The notes below the pieces were generated by a model. The model searched no databases. It worked only from the letters and a program-made list of their open reading frames with translations, and was not told the DNA's origin. A stretch of DNA of 64,000 nucleotides from Phaseolus vulgaris (Eukaryota > Streptophyta > Magnoliopsida > Fabales > Fabaceae), in assembly GCF_000499845.2 (NCBI RefSeq), contig NC_023757.2, forward strand, positions 40,841,162 to 40,905,161. Reading direction: 5' to 3'. The position numbers and the translations under genes were made by a program. Of this stretch, positions 24,239-52,474 are shown one piece after another (the stretch's first letter is position 1; each line of letters begins with the position of its first letter).

Positions 24239-25136
24239 GCTTTCAGGGGCTGAGATCGGTTAACAAGAAAAGGGGTTTGCGGGAACCATAGGACATTGTT
24301 TGGTCCCTGCCAATGTGGATTTTTCTTCAACGAGATCGTGAAATTGAGTTGATGATGGAGTTAACTACCCACTTTCTTTTCTTGTGATGAAAGTTTCCGT
24401 GTAATGATATCAATCATGATTTACAACTTTTTATTACATTTTTAACGCCTTTAATATGCTAACAATAATTTTGCACTAGGCGTGTAAATCTACTAATACG
24501 GAATCATTACACCTTAATCATACTCCACTCAAGAAAAATTGTTCAGTCAAAAGTCATATATAATAATGTAAAATAACTTTAGATAAGATGTGTTTTACAA
24601 GTAAGAAAAAGAAAATTGAAGGAATATTTTTTCTTATATTTTTTTGTCTTTATTCTTTTGTTTTCTTCATCTTTTTTTTTTTTTTATAATACAGTGGATA
24701 TAAAATCTTTATAAAGACTTATTTTACAATAAAAATAAAAAGTATCCCCTTTGAATAACTTGATCTAAACAATAAGATGGTGATACTTTAATATCTCATA
24801 CAATAAAATACATACACTCTACATTCTATTGTATTATTATTTTATTTTTTAATTTAAAATATTATTATAAGTGTCAAAATAAACTTTTCCAAACACTAAC
24901 CTTTTTTTTTTCAAGTTCCACTATCATAAATTATGACTTAGGTTTTGTCATTTTTTATAGACCTTAAAGTAGTATCCTTCTGCAGTGAAAGTTACTATCT
25001 TATTGTTATGGGCTTTCATGATCAACCATACACCTGTCCAGATTTGAAAATGTGAGGAATTATTTAACCCACCATTTATTCATTACATTCATGTTAGTAA
25101 AAGAGGAAGGTGAGAAAACATAGGATAGCTTGAAAA
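24239..25136. other. Intergenic, AT-rich
   Basis: Promoter side of the Tmemb_40-like gene and 3' flank of the P450 gene. Homopolymer T and A runs; no additional feature found. Confidence 0.55.
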
Positions 25137-28100
25137 TCATGGAGATGATGATGAATACAAATGGTGTGAGAGCCTAGGACGAGGGTGGACAGAAAGAGGC
25201 ACCGCTCTCTGGAGGGTGAGCCCATACGCTTCATCCATATTGAGACTTTTGGGGTCAAGTCCATTCTCTAACTCCCAGTCAAATGCATGGGCTAGGGTAG
25301 CAGTGAGTAGCTGAACCTCCACTAGACCTAAGCTCATACCAGCACATATTCTACGCCCAGCACCAAAGGGTATTACCTCAAAGTTGTTGCCCTTAACGTC
25401 AACGCCACCCTTCTCACCACCAAGGAGGAACCTTTCAGGCTTGAACTCCAATGGGTCTGACCACTCCTTAGGGTCACGTCCTATGGCCCACACATTGACC
25501 AAGAGAGTTGCACCTTTCGGAATGTGGTAACCAAATATCTCACAACTCTCTTCAGAAATTCGTGGAATAGAAAGAGGGGTTGGTGGGTGTAAACGAAATG
25601 TCTCCTTCACCACAGCCTGTAAGTAAGGAAGATGGGGCAAGTCAAGTTCTGTCACAAGTCTGTCTTCACCCACAACACTATCTATTTCTTGTCGCACCCG
25701 AACCATGCTTCTCGGGTTCCTAATTAGTTCAGCCATCGCCCATTCAATTGTGCTTGATGGTGTGTCTGTTCCAGCTCCAAACATGTTCTGCAAGAGACAT
25801 CGCTTTACATCAATTGTGAGAAAAGGTAGAGTTACACATAGTCTGTGGAGAATATACGTACCAAAAGTATTGCTTTGACCTCCTCATCAGAAAGCTTGCA
25901 TCCTTCTTGAGGAGTGTCTTTCAGTGACAACAGTGTGGTTAAGTATATGTTTTGGTGTTTCTCATTCTTGGAAATCTGATGTTCCTCGATAATACTAGTT
26001 AAAAATGCATTAAACCTCTTGCGTAGTTTTTTTGCTTTGGCTTTTACTCCATTAAGGTCTAGCCAATCCAGGAATGGAATGAAGTCACCAATATTAAAAA
26101 CTCCTGACAATTTCATGAGCTCCACCACCATAGATTTAAACTCATCTGCCTTTGGATCCCAGCCACTGCTTCCATAATCGAAAACTCTTCGTCCTATCAT
26201 TATCCTTGTCAATGTGTTGGTGGCACATACGTTCAACAATTGTCCCAATTTCACAGCTTTTGAGTCTGAACTTGCCAGATTACGTGTTAATTTTTTTACC
26301 TCTTTCTGTAAATACATTTGTTTAGGTTATGTGTTGCTTTATTATATTATTTCCATTAGAAAAATTGAATGGACTTGCAAAGTCGGGAAAATGAGCAAAA
26401 TGGTGTAATTAGGTAATCAAAATAAGAAAAATAAACAAATGCAACAAAAATTATGTAAAGAAAAATATAATTTGACAACCTAGTTGTATACAATTTCTTT
26501 TTTTTCTTTATATATAAATTTAAAATAAATATATATAATAAAAAGCATGTTTAGAATTAAATATATATAAAAATAATAATAATAATATTATAAATTATAA
26601 TATGATTATATAAAAAATGTGAATTACGAATGATTCTCTTTATAAAAATATATAAGTCATCATTAACAAGTAAAATCTCAAATTTTTATAACAGTAAAAG
26701 ATGTAAATTATGAGTATGAATTTCAGTTTAAAACAAATATTCTCAACAAAAAATACGATTACTATGTAAAATTTGAATAGAAGTGATCATTAATGTGTAC
26801 AACCCTAAACCCACTAATCTACCCAATTTTTATTTAACGGAAGATTGTAGTTGGGATGATAATTTCCATATAAATAACATACAACAAAAAAATTATATTT
26901 GACGTTGACAACTACCGTATATATTATTTAAACTGAAATTCTCATTGGGTAAATTCTCTATCTAGCACCATTTAGACTTTTATTTCCCTAACTAGCACCC
27001 TTTTGTTTTTATTTCCCGCACCTTTTTTTTTTTCCTATCTAACACTCTTTTATTTTTTATTTCCCTAACTAGCACAATTTCCAAAATAAATAAATAAATA
27101 TTTATTTATTTATTTTTTGATAATTTTAATTTTGAATGCATTAAAAAATAAATATTTTTAATGTTTAAAATAGTTAAAAATATAATTAATGAATAAAGAA
27201 ATGAGTTTTTATAAAATAAAAAAAAATTAAATGTTTAGTTTAAAATTATTTTTTTAAGAATGAAGAAAATAAAAAATTAAACCCTACAGCAACATAAAAG
27301 TTGAATTTATAAACATAAATTACTATTTATTTTTATTATTATTGATGATGTAATCATGTTAATTTCAAGTAAAAAATACATGACATAATTACAAAAAAAA
27401 ATAAAGTCAATTAGTATTAATTAATAGTGGATACACAAGTAATATTGAAGTGTCTATCCTAAATGCAAAATCCTAAAAAAAACTAATGCAAATGTTACAC
27501 TTAATGCTTAAAAATGAGAAGCAAAAAATGAAAAAAAAAAGTCTAGAAAATAAAAACAACAACAATAAAAAAAAAGAATGGTAGAAAAAAAAATAATAAC
27601 TAAAAACATAAAAGATATAAAATAAAGGCAAAACAAATTAAGATAAAGATAAAAGATATAAAAATAAATTCAAATAAGATAAATATAAGAGATATAAGGC
27701 GATACTAAATAAGTATATGTTGATCATAAAAATGAAAATAAATGAAAGATGATAATTCATTTAATATTTTATTCAATGATACATTAAATAGTTTATGCGA
27801 AATGAAACATAATTAATGACGAGAAGTGCACAATCCAGTAATGTTGGGACATATTCTTTATGTGTGTCTTGGTGTTTGACAATATGAACATTTTTTTTTT
27901 CTTGTTCCTTTATGTACATATCAGTCCTTATTTAACTTTGTTTTTTTTTATAATTATGTCCTGTATTTTTTACTTTAAATTAACATAATTACATCATCAA
28001 TAATAATAAAATAAATACTAATTTATGTTTATATATTCAACTTTTATGTTCTCGTAGAGTTTAATTTTTTATTTTATTCATTCTTAAAAAAATAATTTTT

Positions 28101-29887
28101 AAACTAAACATTTTAAATTTATTACTTTTTTATTTTTATTTTGTAAAAACACATTTCTTTATTCATTAATTATATTTCTAACTATTTTAAACATTAAAAA
28201 TATTTATTTTTTAATGCATTCAAAACTAAAATTATAAAAAAAAAATTAATTTATTATTTTTTAATTTATTTTTGAAGTGCTAGATAGGGAAATAAAAAAT
28301 AAAAGGGTGCTAGATAGGGAAATAAAAACAAAAGAGTGCTAGATAGGGAAATAAAAACAAAAGGGTGCTAGTTAGGGAAATAAAAGTGTAAATGGTGCTA
28401 GATATGAAATTTACCCCATTTTAGTTGACGACGACTTAAATTGTTTTTTTTTCTCTCATCAAAATGATAATAAATATATTTTTTAAAATAAAAATATGTA
28501 TATAATAATTTAATAACTGGCTAACAATCTTGTGTAAAATTTTATTTTATAGTATATAATTTCAAAAATATTATTTAGAAAAAGCATAAAAAAATAAAGA
28601 ATTAATTTTATTTTTTTAAATCTTGATATATTAAAACTATAGAAAGTATTTTAAATAAATTTGGTTAAAAATAGATTATGCGATAAATTAAAAATGTTTA
28701 CATTTTTTTTAAATATTATTAAAGTCTACAATTTGTTAAAAAAATAGTTTTAAATTTTCAATTTTATTTATAATTTTTTAAATAAAAAAATTAAGCTTAT
28801 ATACTTTAAAATAAAACTTTATAAATGGTACATGTAATTTTAAACAAATTTTAAATATTATACACACATTTTTATTTAAAAATATATTAATTATTTCTAC
28901 GGAAAAACAAATTAAAAGTCATCCATAGAAATGACAAATTCCACTCAAATGAAATACACTAAAATCTGAAGTGCAAATTTTTATATAATTTTAACACTAA
29001 AGTTATTATCCGAAGTGACAACTTTCTTTTAAAAAAATTGAGACAGACTTAAATAAAATCGTATATGAATGGGTTAATTCTATTCAAATTTTACAAAACA
29101 GTCGTAATTCCTGTTGACACTGTTGTTTCGTATTCACAGTATACGACTTTGGAATCGTAAATTTTTGTTCATTTGTCCATTTTCATATTTTCATCCACCA
29201 ATCCTGCAAAGTCTCCCCAACTACCTCTTTCAGTACTTGTTATGATAAGTGAGAAATGAAACTAATAATTTATTTAGATTTTTTTTAATATAAATTTAGG
29301 TGGGAAAACAAGAAAAAAATCTCATTAATAAACTAAAATTAGTTTATGAAAAAAGAGAAGTTTTTTAAGTCGATAAATAATACGATAATATTGCTATATG
29401 ATTAATGGAAATTGATATGGAATATGGAAATGATGCTGACCTCACGCAGTTCTCTAAAATCATCCAGGGCCTTACCAGAGAACATATGAGTTGAGCTTAT
29501 TTTTCTCAGTAACCGCCACCTTGGGCCATAGGAAGCAAACCCAAAGTCTTCTTTGTAATAGCTCATGTACTTGTTCACGAAATTCCGTGGCCGGTTCGAA
29601 AACTTCGCATCGTGAACCTTCAAGAACTGCTCTGCCACGGAGGCGGAAGCCGCCACCACAACGTCAACAAAGCCCAACCGGAGGTAAATGAGCGGGCCAT
29701 ACTTATGGGCCATAGCTGCGAGGGCCTGGTGTGGCGCACGGCCCATGTGAGGCAAATTTCCTACTATGGGCCATGGGCTTGGCCCTGGTGGCAGTGGTAC
29801 TGAATGCGCGGTTCTGAGCTTGAAAAGACTGTAAATAAGGATAGCTGCTACGATAGTAGTAGCAAAAGCTAAAAGCCAAGGTGACAT
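25137..29887 (-). CDS. F3'H: Flavonoid 3'-hydroxylase (cytochrome P450 CYP75B)
   Basis: ER-bound monooxygenase hydroxylating the 3' position of the flavonoid B-ring (naringenin, dihydrokaempferol, kaempferol), steering pigment towards cyanidin/quercetin types; in soybean this is the T (pubescence and hilum colour) gene. Three exons join in frame to 513 aa: 29887-29441, 26305-25862, 25787-25137. N-terminal membrane anchor, then proline hinge LPPGPSPWPIVGNLPHMG, the F3'H signature VVVAAS, I-helix AGTDT, K-helix ETFR, FKPERF, GGEK, VDVKG and heme loop FGAGRRICAG. Oddities: I-helix reads AGTDTP where a Ser/Thr normally follows the Thr, and FASYGPRWR replaces FAPYGPRWR; exon 1 is more diverged from the soybean enzyme (from memory) than exon 3. 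Intron 1 is 3.1 kb and carries a foldback element. The sequence is intact; whether it is the main F3'H or a diverged paralogue is open. Confidence 0.92.
26947..28416. mobile_element. Foldback element with about 470-bp inverted arms in F3'H intron 1
   Basis: The left arm (26947-27410) and right arm (27931-28416) are near-complete reverse complements. The ends match as gggtaaatt(c/t)..tatctagcacc. Each terminus carries three to five direct copies of a gtgctagatagggaaataaaa unit, inverted between arms. Flanks are catt on both sides (26943-26946, 28417-28420), a candidate 4-bp target duplication. The 520-bp loop contains sequence related to the retroelement at 42600-49021. No transposase. The superfamily is not assigned. 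Confidence 0.8.
27446..27720. repeat. Foldback-loop segment related to the 47160-47430 retroelement leader
   Basis: gaagtgtctatcctaaatgc followed by aaaatccta.. and actaatgcaaatg(t/c)tacac matches 47162-47220 almost base for base. Further on both share ataactaaaaa.., aaaataaaggcaaaa and agataaagataaaagatata in the same order and orientation. This is the 5' leader of the Athila-like element (between its primer site and ORF). Confidence 0.7.
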
Positions 29888-30281
29888 GGATATGGATTAT
29901 GTATGTGAGCAACGTGCTTTCAACAATGGTGTCGGATACAAAAGCAGCACAACCTAGTGTGTTATATAAGGGAAATTTTATGTGTGTTATTCAGTGGAAG
30001 ATTTTTCTTTAGTATTAGACAATCATTAGGCTGTGTTTGGATTTAACTTTCAGTCAAATGTTAGTATGTGTGATCATTGTCATGATAGAAAATTGCATTG
30101 AACAAAGTAGAATTAATATATAATAATATTTTCAAAATCAGAACAACCTGCAATCTTTAGAAGAATGAGCTAATATCGATATGTCTTAATTAATCTTGAA
30201 TTTAAACTTTATAAATGAAAAAATAAATAGTTGTGAGAAGATAACAAATTTTCTTCCTAAAATTAATGATGAACTAAAATA
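29888..30281 (-). promoter_or_regulatory. F3'H upstream region, truncated by a copia LTR
   Basis: Only about 390 bases separate the F3'H ATG from the copia LTR at 30282, so the proximal promoter and 5' UTR must lie here or extend into the LTR. A ttatataag motif near 29960 (on both strands essentially palindromic) is a plausible TATA element about 70 bases from the ATG. Confidence 0.45.
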
Positions 30282-30640
30282 TATTAAAGAAATAATAATT
30301 ATCAAATTATAGGTGATTATACATAATTAATTTGATAATGATAAAATCTTATTATTAGTAGACCATCACATAATTTAGCTTGTAATTTAGGGACTCTGAT
30401 TTAGAAATAAAGTGTATATATTTTTTTTTCTATACATGGACACAAAAGAAGAAGACATTACCATTTTTTCTTACCATCTTCTTAAATATCATATTCTTTT
30501 CTTATCTTCTTATTTTCTTACCATCTTCTTAAATATCATATTCTTTTCTTGTCTTCTTATTTTCTTACCATTTTCTTATATACTTATATACAATTTTCTT
30601 ATATGGTCACCGATCTTGATGCTCACTAAATAAAGGATCA
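30282..30640 (+). repeat. Probable 5' LTR of the copia element, with 47-bp internal tandem repeat
   Basis: It matches the block at 34331 onward through its first half. Inside, cttaccatcttcttaaatat-starting units begin at 30470, 30517 and 30564 (the last partial), a 47-bp tandem repeat absent from the other LTR, which has only short cttacc-type remnants. Confidence 0.6.
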
Positions 30641-32900
30641 TGTTTGGCAAAGAAGGCGCGAGTCCGATGGAAACTTGGTACAAGGCTTCACTACAGAGAG
30701 CAAATTCAGCAATTAGCAAAGGTTGTTTACTCGCTGCACTGCAGGTCATGTCAGTTTGCCCATAACTCGTCTATTGATTCTGCTTTTACGAAACCATGAA
30801 TTTTAGATAACGGAGCAACCGATCACATTGCATCTGATTCACAACTTTTCGCACACACTTCATCATCATTTATTCCAAATGTTAATTTGCCCATTGGCTC
30901 ACCTGCGACCATCTCATATACGGGCACAATTAAATTCAATGACAATATCACTCTCAAAGATGTTATTGTTTGCGTTCTTTCTTTTAATTTAAATCTCAAG
31001 TCTATTAGTAAGATAACCAGTTCACTAAATTGTTGTGTCATTCTTTTTCCACATGGTTGCGTTTTTCCACATGATTGGTTCAGGTAAACAATACGCAGGC
31101 TTATACTACATATCCCTCTTCCAAACCAAATTTCGACCGACCCTGATTTATGGCACAAGCGTCTACAACTTGCATTTTCATTACTACCTATTAGTAAACA
31201 TCTCACTTTCATTCATAATAATTGTATTATTTGTCCCGAAGTTAAACAAAGAACACTACACTTTCCTTGAAGCACAATAAAATCTCATTCTCCATTTAAT
31301 TTATTGCATTGTGACATTGGGTCCTCATAAAACCCCAACTCATTTTGTAAAACTTTTTTTCGATGACTATACTAGATGTACTTGGCTATTTCTTATGAAT
31401 CATGAATCTGAAACATCTCTTAGAATCCTTCCTTACATTTACATAAAATCAATTTCAGGCATCTATTAAAACCATTCGCGTTGACAACGAATTGGAATTT
31501 ATTTCAATGCGTAATTTTGTTTTCAAAAAAGATATTGAATGTCAACACACTTGCGTCTACACTCCTCAACAAAATGGAGTTGTAGAACGCAAACATGGAC
31601 ACATTTTAAACACAACACAAGTTCTCCTATTTTAGTCTCAAATAAATCACCTTTTGAGTTGCTATATAATCACCCACCTTCACTTTCTCACCTAAAAAAC
31701 TTTTGGTCGCCTCTATTACGCAATTGTTATTTCACCTAAGCAAAAATTTGATACGCGCGCTCGACTATGCGTTTTCATTGATCATCCTCACAATAAAAAA
31801 AGATAGAAGTTATTTGATATAGGTGCAAACACGTTTTTTACAAGTTGAGATGTCACCTTCCATGAAAGTGTTTTTCCATTCTGCTAACCGTCTCATACGC
31901 AATCCTCACCTCCATTACAAGATATTTTGCCCGCTATTGACATTGACTTACCCACTCCTATCCGACATTTACTCAATCCACCATCTTCTCCTACTCGTCA
32001 CAATGCACCTGAACCTCCAACAGACCAACATTTTTCTCCGCGCTAGGAAGTCTAGCACCCATTACCGAACCTTCTCCAACCGACCTTCCTGTTCGACGAT
32101 CCAATCGCACATCAACCCCACCTTCTTGGCTTCAAGACTACGTAACGGGATCACAAGTCAATCATTCGACCACTACCGAAGACCAACCGAATGTAACCAG
32201 TATCCTATGTATAATTTTCTTTCTAATTCATGATTTTCTTCTACACATAGTGCATATCTTGGTAACATCACAAGCACCAAAGAACCTCACACTTATGCTC
32301 AAACTATCCTTGATCCAAATTGGCAAAAAGAGCTTTTCGCCTTGCATCTAAATCAAATGTGAACCTTGACACGTTACTCGTCAGGTAGAAACCCATCGGA
32401 TGCAAATGGATTTATAAATAAAAGTACAAATCGGATGGCAGTGTCCAACAAATATAAGGCACGCCTTGTCGCAAAGGGTACACTAAGATTAAAGGTGTTG
32501 ACTATTGTGAATTTTTTTTACCAACAGCGAAATTAACAACTTTGAGGTGTCTTCTCACCATTGGAGCAGCTAAAAATTGGTTTATTCACGAGCTAGATAT
32601 GCAAAATGCCTTCTTACATGGCAAATACACAAAATTATTTACATGGACTTGCCACATGGGCATCGTCGATAAGGGAGAACATTGTATGTCGACTCAACAA
32701 ATCTCTTTATGGTCTTAAACAGGCATCCCAAACATGATTTTCAACATTTTCTCATGTGATTAAATCTGCAAGATTTCGACAATCCAAGGTGGACTACTTT
32801 TTATTCACAAGACATAATAACTCATCATTTGCCTTCTTTTATTTATGTGGACGATATTCTTTTGACAAAAAATATCTGACACAAATGCAGCTTCTTAAAG

Positions 32901-33764
32901 AGGTTTTTTGACCATGATGGGGTTATTTTTTTTGGTTTTTACCAAAATGGGGTTCGTTTAAAAAAAATTACAAACTTAGGCAAGTCGTGCCTAATTGGGA
33001 CGACTTCATATGCAGAAGTTGTCCTAATTAGGCACGACTTCTGCCATGTCATACTAAAGTCGTGCCAACTTGGGACGACTTCTGCCCTGTCATACTTTTT
33101 TTTATTTTATTTTTAATTTTATTGTTTATATATTGGGTAGTAAGTTATGTAATGTTACAAATTAATTTATTCTCATCATTACGTGTTCCGTAAAATCATT
33201 ACTTCTCAAACTATTTATTTTTCAAATTCACAACAATAATTCTCTATTTATTTTCCAAATATAATAATTTTTCATTTATCTATTTATTTCCAAATTCAAT
33301 AACAATTTTCTTCATTTTTTAATTAATCAAATAATCAAGTTATTGTATTACATTACCGTCAAACATGATCCATACACGATTATCCAATTTTTTGTTCCTT
33401 AAAACTAACACTCTTAGAAAATTATGTATCAAATTAATTTTTAACATTATATAACTTACTATCCAATATATAAATAATAAAATTTTTAAAAAATGACGTG
33501 GCAGAAGTCGTGCCAAGTTGGCACGACTTCAATATGACGGGGCAGAAGTCGTGCCAAGTTGGCACGACTTCAGTATGACAGGGCAGAAGTCGTGTCAAGT
33601 TGGCACGACTTCATTATGACATGGCAGAAGTCGTGCCTAATTGGAACGATTTCTACATATGAAGTCGTGCCGAATTGACACGACTTGCCTAAATTTGTAA
33701 TTTTTTTTAAACTGACCCATTTTGGTAAAAACCAAAAAAAATAACCCCATCATGGTCAAAAAAT
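32901..33764. mobile_element. Mutator-type MITE inside copia reverse transcriptase
   Basis: TIRs exceed 100 bp: left begins aggttttttgaccatgatgg and continues through accaaaatggggt and ggcaagtcgtgcc; right is its inverse. Flanks are ttcttaaag (32892-32900) and ctcttaaag (33765-33773), a 9-bp duplication with one mismatch; removing the element restores the copia frame context on both sides. The interior holds palindromic gaagtcgtgcc..ggcacgacttc units. No transposase. Confidence 0.85.
33493..33680. repeat. 41-bp tandem array of palindromic units
   Basis: Units start at 33493, 33534, 33575 and 33616 (atgac..gg), each containing gaagtcgtgccaag followed by ttggcacgacttc, a near-perfect inverted repeat. 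Similar units occur in inverse arrangement at the left end of the same MITE (about 32985-33095). Confidence 0.9.
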
Positions 33765-40449: not shown

Positions 40450-42594
40450 GCTTGGAAAAGATAATGTTGTATTGAGTAGTGGGTGGAGGCTTAGTGAAAA
40501 ACTTTGCTGCTTGTAAGAAGGAAGGAATTGGAAGAAGTTTGAAAAGGCCTGTGTTGAGTTTCTCCCTAAAAACATGACAGTCAATCTCAATGTGTTTGGT
40601 TTATTCGTAGAAGACCTGATTGTGAGCATTCTGGATGGCAACTTGGTTATCACAATAGAGAAGGGTTGGTTGTTGATGTTGAATGTGTAAATCATGCAGC
40701 AGGTATGTTATCCATTGAAGCTCACAAGTGGTTGCAGCAAGGGCACATTATTCTGCCTCAGATGAGCTCCTGGATATGGTTTGTTGTTTCTTGGATTTCC
40801 AAGATATGAGAGACTCCCCCAAATATATAGAAAAACCAGTTATGGATTTGCGAGTTTCAGGGCATGTAGCCCAATCAAAATCACTATATGCTTTTAATTG
40901 AATAGGAGATTTATTGTGTAAGAATATACATGTGTCGGGAGTTCGTTTAAGATAGCGAAGAATGCACATTGTTGCCTGATGATGCTCATTGGTTGGGGGT
41001 GTGAGACGAACTAACTGAGGTGATTAACTGAGAAGGAGATGTCAGGTCGGGTGTTGATCAGATAAATGAGACGTCCTGTCAGACGTTTGTAAGTAGTGGA
41101 TTATGCGTCTCCAAGGGGAATGCCTTTTGTGGTTGAGAGTTTGGTATTATGAAGCATTGGTGTAGGAGCATGAGGACATCCCAACATGCCACTATCTTTT
41201 AGTAGGTCCATAATGTACTTTCATTGACTTAAGTGAATGCAGTGGCATTACAAGCCACTTTAATGCCCATAAAATAAGTTAAATCACCACGATTTTTAAT
41301 ATGAAAAAAATTATATAACAAACCAGTGATGGTAGATATTTCCATAGGATTAGTCCTAATGAGAATAATGTCATCCACATAGACCAACAATGTCGTGGTG
41401 TGTTTGCCATCATATTTCAAAAATAAAGAATGGTCAACATTTGAGATTTTGTAAATTGTATGAAATAAAAAGTTTGAGAGTTTAGCATACCATTATTTAC
41501 CTACTTGTTTGAGGCCATAAAGAGATTTCTTGAGGCGACAAACAAGATTGGGAGAAGAGAATGGAAAACCTGAAGGCAATTGCATGTAAACTTCTTCATC
41601 TAGGTCTCCATGTAGGAAGACATTATTCACATCAAGTTGCTTGAGTGTCCAATTTTGAGTTGTTGCTAGAGAAAGGAGTAGACGTAGGGTAGTTAACTTT
41701 GCTATAGAAGCAAAGATGTCTAAGAAGTCTAGACCTTCAATTTGATTGTACCATTTTGCTACCAAGCGGGCTTTGTAGCATTCAATAGAACCATCTGCAT
41801 GATGCTTGACTTTATTGACCCATTTACACCCAATTGTTATTTTTCCATAAGGAAGTTTGGTCAAGGACCATGTGTCACTATTTTGGAGTGCTTGCAATTC
41901 TTCCTTCATAGATTGGATCCAATGTGGGTATAAGACACCTTCCTCGTAATTTCGAGGTTCCTCAACATAAGAGATTAACATTATTATATTTTTTAAATGC
42001 TTGGATAAAGAATTGTAATTTAAAAAGGAATGAATAGAATGTTTAGTACTTACAGTATTATTGCTGAAGTTTGGCATATCAAAATCTTAGAGATAAGCAT
42101 AGGGCCTTCTGTTGCGGGTAGATATTCTAGGAGAGACAATTATAGTCTCACTTTGCTAAACATTAGTATCAATCTCAAAAATATTATCAGAAAAACTATT
42201 ATCAATACTTTCAGTGTGCATATGAAAATCATCATGAGTCTGGACATAATTTTGAGGAATGGGTAAAGAAAGGCTGCTTGAATAATTATTTTGAATATGT
42301 TTTGAATGATAGGGAAAAGAGTTTTCAAAAAAGATAACATTTCTTGACAAATCTATCTTAAGATTTAAAAACAAGAAACTTTTTGTGTTTGATTTGAAAC
42401 CAAGAAAAACACTTGGAACAACGCGACTGTCTAGCATTTTTGTTGTGAGCGAGGATAGTTGAAGAATAACACAAACACCCAAAAACACGAATAGAATAAA
42501 TTTTACAAACCTTTTTATGCATTTTTTCACCATAGGAGTAACATTATTAAGTAGCGGAGTAGGCATACAATTAATAAGAAAAACAACATGTTGT
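40450..42594 (-). pseudogene. Copia integrase C-terminus, reverse transcriptase and RNase H, broken
   Basis: Read on the minus strand. Integrase tail and chromodomain-like segment with VFLGFKSNTK (42594-42156), then reverse transcriptase with GCKWVNKVK, YKARLVAK, LDVNNVFLHGDL and SLYGLKQ (42077-41493). The YVDDIIL active-site motif follows after an in-frame stop (41420-41229), then RNase H with YSDFDWA.. and SKKQQTISRSSSEAE (40969-40748). Several stops and frameshifts separate the pieces. The catalytic DD pair is still readable but the frame is not continuous. Confidence 0.85.
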
Positions 42595-47159: not shown

Positions 47160-47620
47160 CTGAAGTGTCTACCCTAAATGCAAAATCCTATAAAAATAAA
47201 AACTAATGCAAATGCTACACTTAATGCTTTAAAAAAAATAGTTAGAGAGAAAAAAAGAAAAAAGAAAAAAAATATTATGTAAAAATAAATAAAATATAGA
47301 AAATAAAAACAGTAAACAAAAACAAAAATAGAAATAAATAAAGATGACAAAACAAAACAAAAGAAATAACTAAAAAAAGAAAATATATAAAATAAAGGCA
47401 AAATAAGATAAAGATAAAAGATATAAAGGAATAAAATAAAAACAAAAAAAATAAAATAAAGATAAAAGATATATGACATAAAATAAAATCAAAACAAAAT
47501 AAAGATAAAAGATATAAAGAAAGAAAATAAAACAAATCAAAACAAAATAAAGATAAAAATATAAATATAAATAAAGAAAATAAAAACAAATCAAAATAAA
47601 ATAAAATAACAGATATCCTA
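47160..47620 (-). repeat. 5' leader of the young element, with A-rich 45-50-bp repeats
   Basis: Almost pure purine on the + strand. ataaagataaaagatata recurs at about 47408, 47456, 47499 and 47547. The part 47160-47430 is the segment also found in the foldback loop at 27446-27720. Confidence 0.7.
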
Positions 47621-52042: not shown

Positions 52043-52474
52043 GACTGTTTCTTCCTGCACCTCCATACCTTCTTCTCTCACCTCCATATATTTTCAAAAA
52101 TGTCCTTCTATAATATTTCGGATTACGTAATCTGAAAGTCATTTTTTAAATTTATAATTAGATTTCGGATTATGTAATCTGGAAGCCTTTTTTCATATGC
52201 ATGATTACTTTCCAGATTACATAATCCGGAAGTCTTATTTAGCTTCCGGATTATGTAATCCATAAGTCTTTTTTCAAATGTGTTCCAAATTACATAATCT
52301 GGAAGTCTTATTTAGCTTCCGGATTATGTAATCCAAAAGTCTTTTTTCAAGTGTGTTCCAAATTATATAATCCGGAAACTAGTCTATGGGGTGACAAAAA
52401 AGGATAAAAATATATTTTCAATTTGTGTATAGAGGTGCCAGAAAAATATATGGAGGTGCAGAAAAAAAACAGTC
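52043..52474. mobile_element. Mutator-type MITE, copy C, perfect 9-bp target duplication
   Basis: TIRs of about 60 bp: gactgtttcttcctgcacct on the left and the inverse of gactgttttttttctgcacc on the right. Flanks are ttgttttat on both sides (52034-52042, 52475-52483). The interior (about 52140-52375) is an array of palindromic cttccggattatgtaatccg-type words in both orientations. Related to copies A, B and D through the ttcttcctgcac block. Confidence 0.88.

Follow-up and report, generated by a model that had tools for sequence, protein, structure and literature searches.

The locus examined here raises the question of what a long inverted repeat does to a gene when it sits in one of that gene's introns. 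In a 64,000-nucleotide stretch of Phaseolus vulgaris chromosome 3 (NC_023757.2, positions 40,841,162 to 40,905,161; referred to hereafter as the window), such a repeat makes up 1470 of the 3135 nt of intron 1 of a minus-strand gene resembling flavonoid 3'-hydroxylase (F3'H). Our analysis indicates that the repeat is very probably one copy of a high-copy, non-coding family of foldback DNA transposons of the Mutator-like element (MULE) type, that it landed in the intron of an F3'H-like paralogue, and that it is most likely spliced out. Coordinates of all features are given in Table 1.

The foldback is genuine and far beyond chance. Self-comparison of the window by BLAST gave a single dominant inverted match, formed by the two arms, which align with 86% identity, with gaps, over 492 columns (E 5e-169). 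The element runs from the tip GGGTAAATT at 26947 to the tip AATTTACCC at 28416, and 955 of its 1470 bp are arms; with the terminal arrays of 29-30 bp units, this is the structure of a foldback element. Tandem Repeats Finder (TRF) assigned period 30 to 26954-27017 and period 29 to 28277-28404. Folded as RNA in the transcribed orientation, the element had a minimum free energy of -550.1 kcal/mol, compared with -218.5 ± 8.2 in 40 dinucleotide shuffles. In the predicted fold, 432 of the 488 right-arm bases were paired with the opposite arm and the longest unbroken helix was 84 bp. The initial annotation of this DNA had proposed a foldback with two long arms inside intron 1 of an F3'H-type gene and a correspondingly long hairpin in the pre-mRNA; the self-alignment, the position of the element within the intron and the predicted fold agree with it on each count. 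Its statement that the arms pair almost completely has to be corrected to the gapped 86% identity and the 432 of 488 paired bases given above. The terminal unit, which it gave as 21 bp, is 29-30 bp according to TRF.

Searches of the bean genome (537,678,788 bases) showed that the element has many relatives. All 40 matches scored for the whole element (the best 40 of 905 candidates, window copy included) covered most of its length at 87-100% identity. The loop alone gave 40 scored matches from 732 candidates, again with the window copy among them, at 92-100% over nearly the full length. A terminal 27-mer, allowing up to 3 mismatches, was found 467 times genome-wide (229 forward and 238 reverse), and the reversed control 27-mer was found 0 times in either orientation. 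When 34 of the 40 copies were aligned (6 were left out), pairwise identity averaged 0.952 with gaps ignored, and that of the window copy to the majority was 0.977. Four composite copies (L044, L013, L026 and L027) consist of an element within, or abutting, a copy of its own family. Within the loop of the window copy, 27446-27514 matches a stretch of ~70 bp elsewhere in the window (47161-47234; 66 of 69 aligned letters). We take the sequence near the latter to resemble the primer-binding site of a long terminal repeat (LTR) retrotransposon, and the loop and such an element may have a segment in common.

The family duplicates its target site over 8-10 bp, most often 9. In a fixed 9-bp register, a perfect flanking repeat was present in 10 of 37 copies (three of the 40 lacked a recognised end and were left out), and 19 of the 37 agreed at 7 or more of the 9 positions. 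Mismatched pairs reached 7 in 1.35% of cases and never reached 8. A second count allowed repeats of 8-10 bp and a slip of up to one base per end, and included 20 further loci; of 57 copies tried, 13 were dropped and 44 had both ends. Direct repeats of 8-10 bp with no more than one mismatch flanked 31 of the 44 (17 of them with 9 bp), and in 24 the repeat was perfect, compared with 1.16% of mismatched pairs at up to one mismatch and 0 of 1892 perfect. The other 13 copies, including the one in the window, had no clear duplication. The 9-bp duplication is proved by an empty site: L044 is inserted into another copy's loop, and when its flanks are joined with a single AAATAAGTA removed, they read as the unbroken loop of the window element.

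The flanks of the window copy carry catt on both sides, as the initial annotation had noted, but this is not the target repeat of the family. A 4-bp target duplication was rejected because the family duplicates 8-10 bp. Since an exact 4-bp flank match occurred in only 1.2% of mismatched pairs, catt/catt is unexplained rather than demonstrated to be chance.

Mutator-like elements characteristically combine long inverted ends with duplications of 9 bp. Long arms were present in the 34 aligned copies, and the duplication of about 9 bp was found for the family, including the empty site at L044, though not for the window copy. Because it combines long inverted ends with duplications of 8-10 bp, the family reads as a non-autonomous foldback MULE; it is an abundant family of common bean and of an ordinary kind. 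Miniature inverted-repeat transposable elements (MITEs) are non-coding, high in copy and usually under about 800 bp. The bean family is high in copy and had no long frame in 11 copies with both ends recognised, but at ~1.5 kb its element is long for a MITE. The FARE elements of Arabidopsis resemble the bean family, by description rather than by sequence, in their long palindromic MULE-type ends; some of them carry coding sequence, unlike the bean copies. FARE elements are cited as foldbacks now classed with MULEs (PMC4486113). Elements of the CACTA type have CACTA tips and a 2-3 bp duplication (PMC4093653), whereas the bean tips read GGGTAAATT and the duplications are 8-10 bp.

Among described systems, MuTAnT, a foldback MULE of Medicago truncatula, is also a legume element with long inverted repeats, a G-rich tip and a 9-nt duplication (PMC4486113). 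The type element of MuTAnT is 292 bp with 144-bp arms, in a family ranging from ca. 200 bp to over 1.6 kb, and its tip follows the mask GGGGTTTGCTAGAACA (PMC4486113); the bean element is ~1.5 kb with arms of 470-490 bp and the tip GGGTAAATTCCC. MuTAnT targets TA microsatellites (PMC4486113), whereas the flanks of the bean copies, judged by eye, show no general (TA)n preference. One of the bean copies, L045, is situated within an AT run. The Tm1 Mutator/Foldback elements of root-knot nematodes likewise have composite inverted repeats with internal tandem motifs; their arms are 93% identical on average, and 45 of 53 elements have 8-10 bp duplications (PMC3169594). Tm1 differs from the bean family in its animal host, its internal motif of ca. 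14 bp, its asymmetric terminal motifs and the existence of members with a putative transposase (PMC3169594). MULEs with whole ends in tandem (PMC3310237) are only loosely like the short units of the bean element. A transposable element library of common bean, built by transposase searches and MITE-Hunter, holds 45 MULE sequences, which come from the same species (PMC4093653). No description of the foldback family was found by title in the literature searched, and the 45 library sequences may include it. In a string search of papers, GTGCTAGATAGGG was unmatched and shorter strings matched three papers, none of them a bean or transposon paper by title.

Such a family would depend on a MULE transposase supplied from another part of the genome, which would recognise the GGGTAAATTCCCTATCTAGCACC ends and have moved the element into intron 1, probably at least a million years ago. 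Once there, it would most likely be removed with the intron by splicing. Small RNAs derived from the hairpin, if any, would be aimed mainly at the family's own copies and would affect the gene little or not at all.

The timing comes from comparison among copies. Of 1363 alignment columns that at least 90% of the other copies conserve, 21 (1.5%) carried private differences in the window copy; the median for the 34 copies was 1.67%. With substitution rates of 1.3e-8 to 6.5e-9 per site per year, this suggests that the insertion is 1.2-2.4 million years old, that is, a million years or more, which precedes the domestication of bean. Given the apparent age of the copy, judged from these private substitutions, presence/absence differences among cultivars would not be expected. 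A recent insertion behind cultivar differences was rejected on the same 21 private differences, counted in a sample biased to close copies. We also rejected a recent homogenisation of the arms by gene conversion, as the two arms of one copy are as similar (0.912) as arms compared between copies (0.910). Left arms compared with left arms and right arms with right arms gave 0.952 and 0.950, respectively, across the 34 copies, and the mismatch between the arms is therefore ancestral.

The gene around the element has an intact coding frame. In the model that we built from the sequence, three exons join in frame to give an intact product of 513 amino acids, both introns are GT-AG, and Pfam P450 is matched in all three exon frames. 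Intron 1 is long and AT-rich (20% GC), and the hairpin lies 1024 nt from its donor and 641 nt from its acceptor. The nearest full-length relative among the matches listed (120 of 4884) was a flavonoid 3'-monooxygenase-like protein of Vigna umbellata (84% identity), and in a comparison of nine proteins it was closest for each of exons 1-3 (86, 78 and 90%).

Several observations weigh against the reading of a MULE copy that inserted into intron 1 and is spliced out. No duplication of 8-10 bp can be recognised at the window copy; its flanks agree at 4 of 9 positions in register, and the best slipped fit has 3 mismatches in 9, which 12.9% of 1332 mismatched pairs do as well. L026 and L027, which abut family sequence, have no clear duplication in either case. 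No transposase-encoding member with the same ends was seen in the 20 further loci, which had a perfect 27-bp end and no partner end visible among the 27-mer matches listed. The estimates of family age and divergence are biased young by the choice of copies, since the first 40 are those that match the window copy best, and a perfect end was the criterion for choosing the 20 further loci. Finally, the reference protein of the gene is missing exon 1, and intron 1 could be abnormally spliced.

In the 20 further loci, no stop-free stretch of at least 200 aa was present inside the 11 elements with both ends recognised, and five loci (L048, L051, L054, L065 and L067) had no closing end in the stretch examined. 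Frames of at least 200 aa in L051, L067 and L054 seem to resemble a Ty3-type polyprotein and a CAAX-protease-like gene; those in L053, L060, L062 and L066 are located beyond the pieces of the element.

The missing duplication would be explained if two dispersed copies had recombined to produce the locus, or if a flank had been rearranged later, in place of a simple insertion. Most copies have the duplication that this one lacks, and composite copies exist. However, both flanks lie in one gene whose three exons have the same nearest relative, and absence of a duplication is common, as 13 of 44 copies have no clear one. We consider a recombined or rearranged locus unlikely.

The missing exon bears on the gene itself. 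The reference protein PHAVU_003G185500 (P0029; Phaseolus vulgaris chromosome 3) is 100% identical to the gene model over 71% of it, corresponding to exons 2 and 3. It is 368 aa long and begins MYLQ by reading through the intron-1 acceptor, without exon 1 (25137-26317 vs 29441-29887). Either the annotation has slipped here or exon 1 fails to be joined. In the latter case the intronic hairpin might impair the gene, through transcription, splicing or methylation, and sever exon 1 to leave a 5'-truncated or silenced F3'H paralogue. A protein search with exon 1 would fit, as the sole 100% match among 89 was an unnamed metagenome open reading frame (ORF), most matches were nameless, and no bean protein was among the named ones; in rice, genes with heterochromatic transposable elements in their introns require a dedicated factor (PMC7145194). 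On the other hand, the frame and the GT-AG sites are intact, all three exons are nearest the same full-length V. umbellata protein, and a gene predictor may drop an exon across a long AT-rich intron with no biology needed. Impairment of the gene thus seems improbable to us. The chance is slimmer still that the hairpin, or promoter-like arms, split the gene such that bean makes only a 5'-truncated product from exon 2; if so, an F3'H paralogue would have become a new gene, or a dying one, through the foldback. The metagenome contig that carries the ORF (P0121; 5306 bp; Joint Genome Institute) encodes the exon-1 frame of 29402-29887, differing at a single residue immediately beyond the splice site. 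This contig is probably DNA of another bean genotype and may span part of intron 1.

The predicted helix, with its 84 uninterrupted base pairs, might instead make the transcribed hairpin a source of 24-nt small interfering RNAs (siRNAs) or a MITE-derived microRNA (miRNA) that regulates the host or other genes. MITE transcripts can give 24-nt siRNAs, and Mutator MITEs contribute to MITE-derived miRNAs of dicots (PMC12595863). Against this, the single Rfam match in 25000-31000 was a nematode small nucleolar RNA below the gathering score, and the signal would not be specific to the gene because many sibling copies would yield much the same RNAs. We regard a regulatory small-RNA role as conceivable but rather doubtful, and return to an element that is probably spliced out.

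Which F3'H gene carries the element was addressed with a tree of 33 chosen proteins, rooted at the midpoint and with only 84/92 at the two deepest forks. The window gene groups with F3'H proteins (CYP75B), and F3'H activity is putative. With the V. umbellata protein (P0001) it forms a 100/100 pair, within an 11-protein clade of Spatholobus and some Glycine, Mucuna, Cajanus and Psophocarpus proteins. Soybean P0098, which we take to be the T-locus protein, grouped apart with bean V7AX70 and Vigna proteins in a 13-protein set (100/98). The window gene was accordingly rejected as "the" pigment F3'H. Its place outside the clade of P0098 and V7AX70 suggests that it is a paralogue (a side copy), for which a pigment role is therefore unsupported. 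A different gene, Phvul.009G192400, has been named as F3'H (PMC5445279). PHAVU_003G185500 is absent from the main text of two papers on bean flavonoids (PMC9736660 and PMC11443926), and no mention of this gene id was found in the literature searched. The route to seed or hair colour variation put forward in the initial annotation is thus unsupported: the gene lies outside that clade, its frame is intact, the hairpin is remote from the splice sites and the copy looks old. A plausible yet unsupported seed-colour candidate is thereby removed. The ends, arm structure and target duplication described here for the bean foldback MULE family should aid repeat masking and gene annotation, and the reference protein of the F3'H paralogue is flagged as stopping at the intron that bears the element.

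Table 1. Positions in the window of the foldback element, its parts and flanks, and the exons and introns of the F3'H-like gene.
Feature	Position	Strand	Remarks
Non-autonomous foldback Mutator-like element	26947..28416	.	1470 bp; based on arms, 39 other copies covering most of the length, and family target duplication
Left arm (terminal inverted repeat)	26947..27413	+	467 bp; self-BLAST
Right arm (terminal inverted repeat)	27929..28416	-	488 bp; self-BLAST
Loop	27414..27928	+	515 bp, AT-rich; 92-95% identity to 39 other genome places scored
Terminal array	26954..27075	-	Units of roughly 29-30 bp, middle irregular; cores like GTGCTAGATAGGG, up to 2 mismatches, at 26956, 26986, 27033, 27063
Terminal array	28277..28407	+	29-30 bp units; cores at 28277, 28307, 28336, 28365, 28395
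Left flank catt	26943..26946	+	Not the 8-10 bp target duplication of the family
Right flank catt	28417..28420	+	Not the 8-10 bp target duplication of the family
Exon 1 of F3'H-like gene	29441..29887	-	149 aa; absent from reference protein P0029
Intron 1	26306..29440	-	3135 bp, GT...AG; element at positions 1025-2494 in transcript order
Exon 2	25862..26305	-	148 aa
Intron 2	25788..25861	-	74 bp
Exon 3	25137..25787	-	216 aa + stop

Other repeats were noted in the window. A tandem array of a 41-bp unit (4.1 copies), which contains the palindrome-like GTCGTGCCAAGTTGGCACGAC, lies at 33493-33662, and a fragment of a Copia-type reverse transcriptase (Pfam RVT_2) at 41493-42077. Tandem repeats on units such as TTCCGGATTATGTAATCC occupy 52121-52377.

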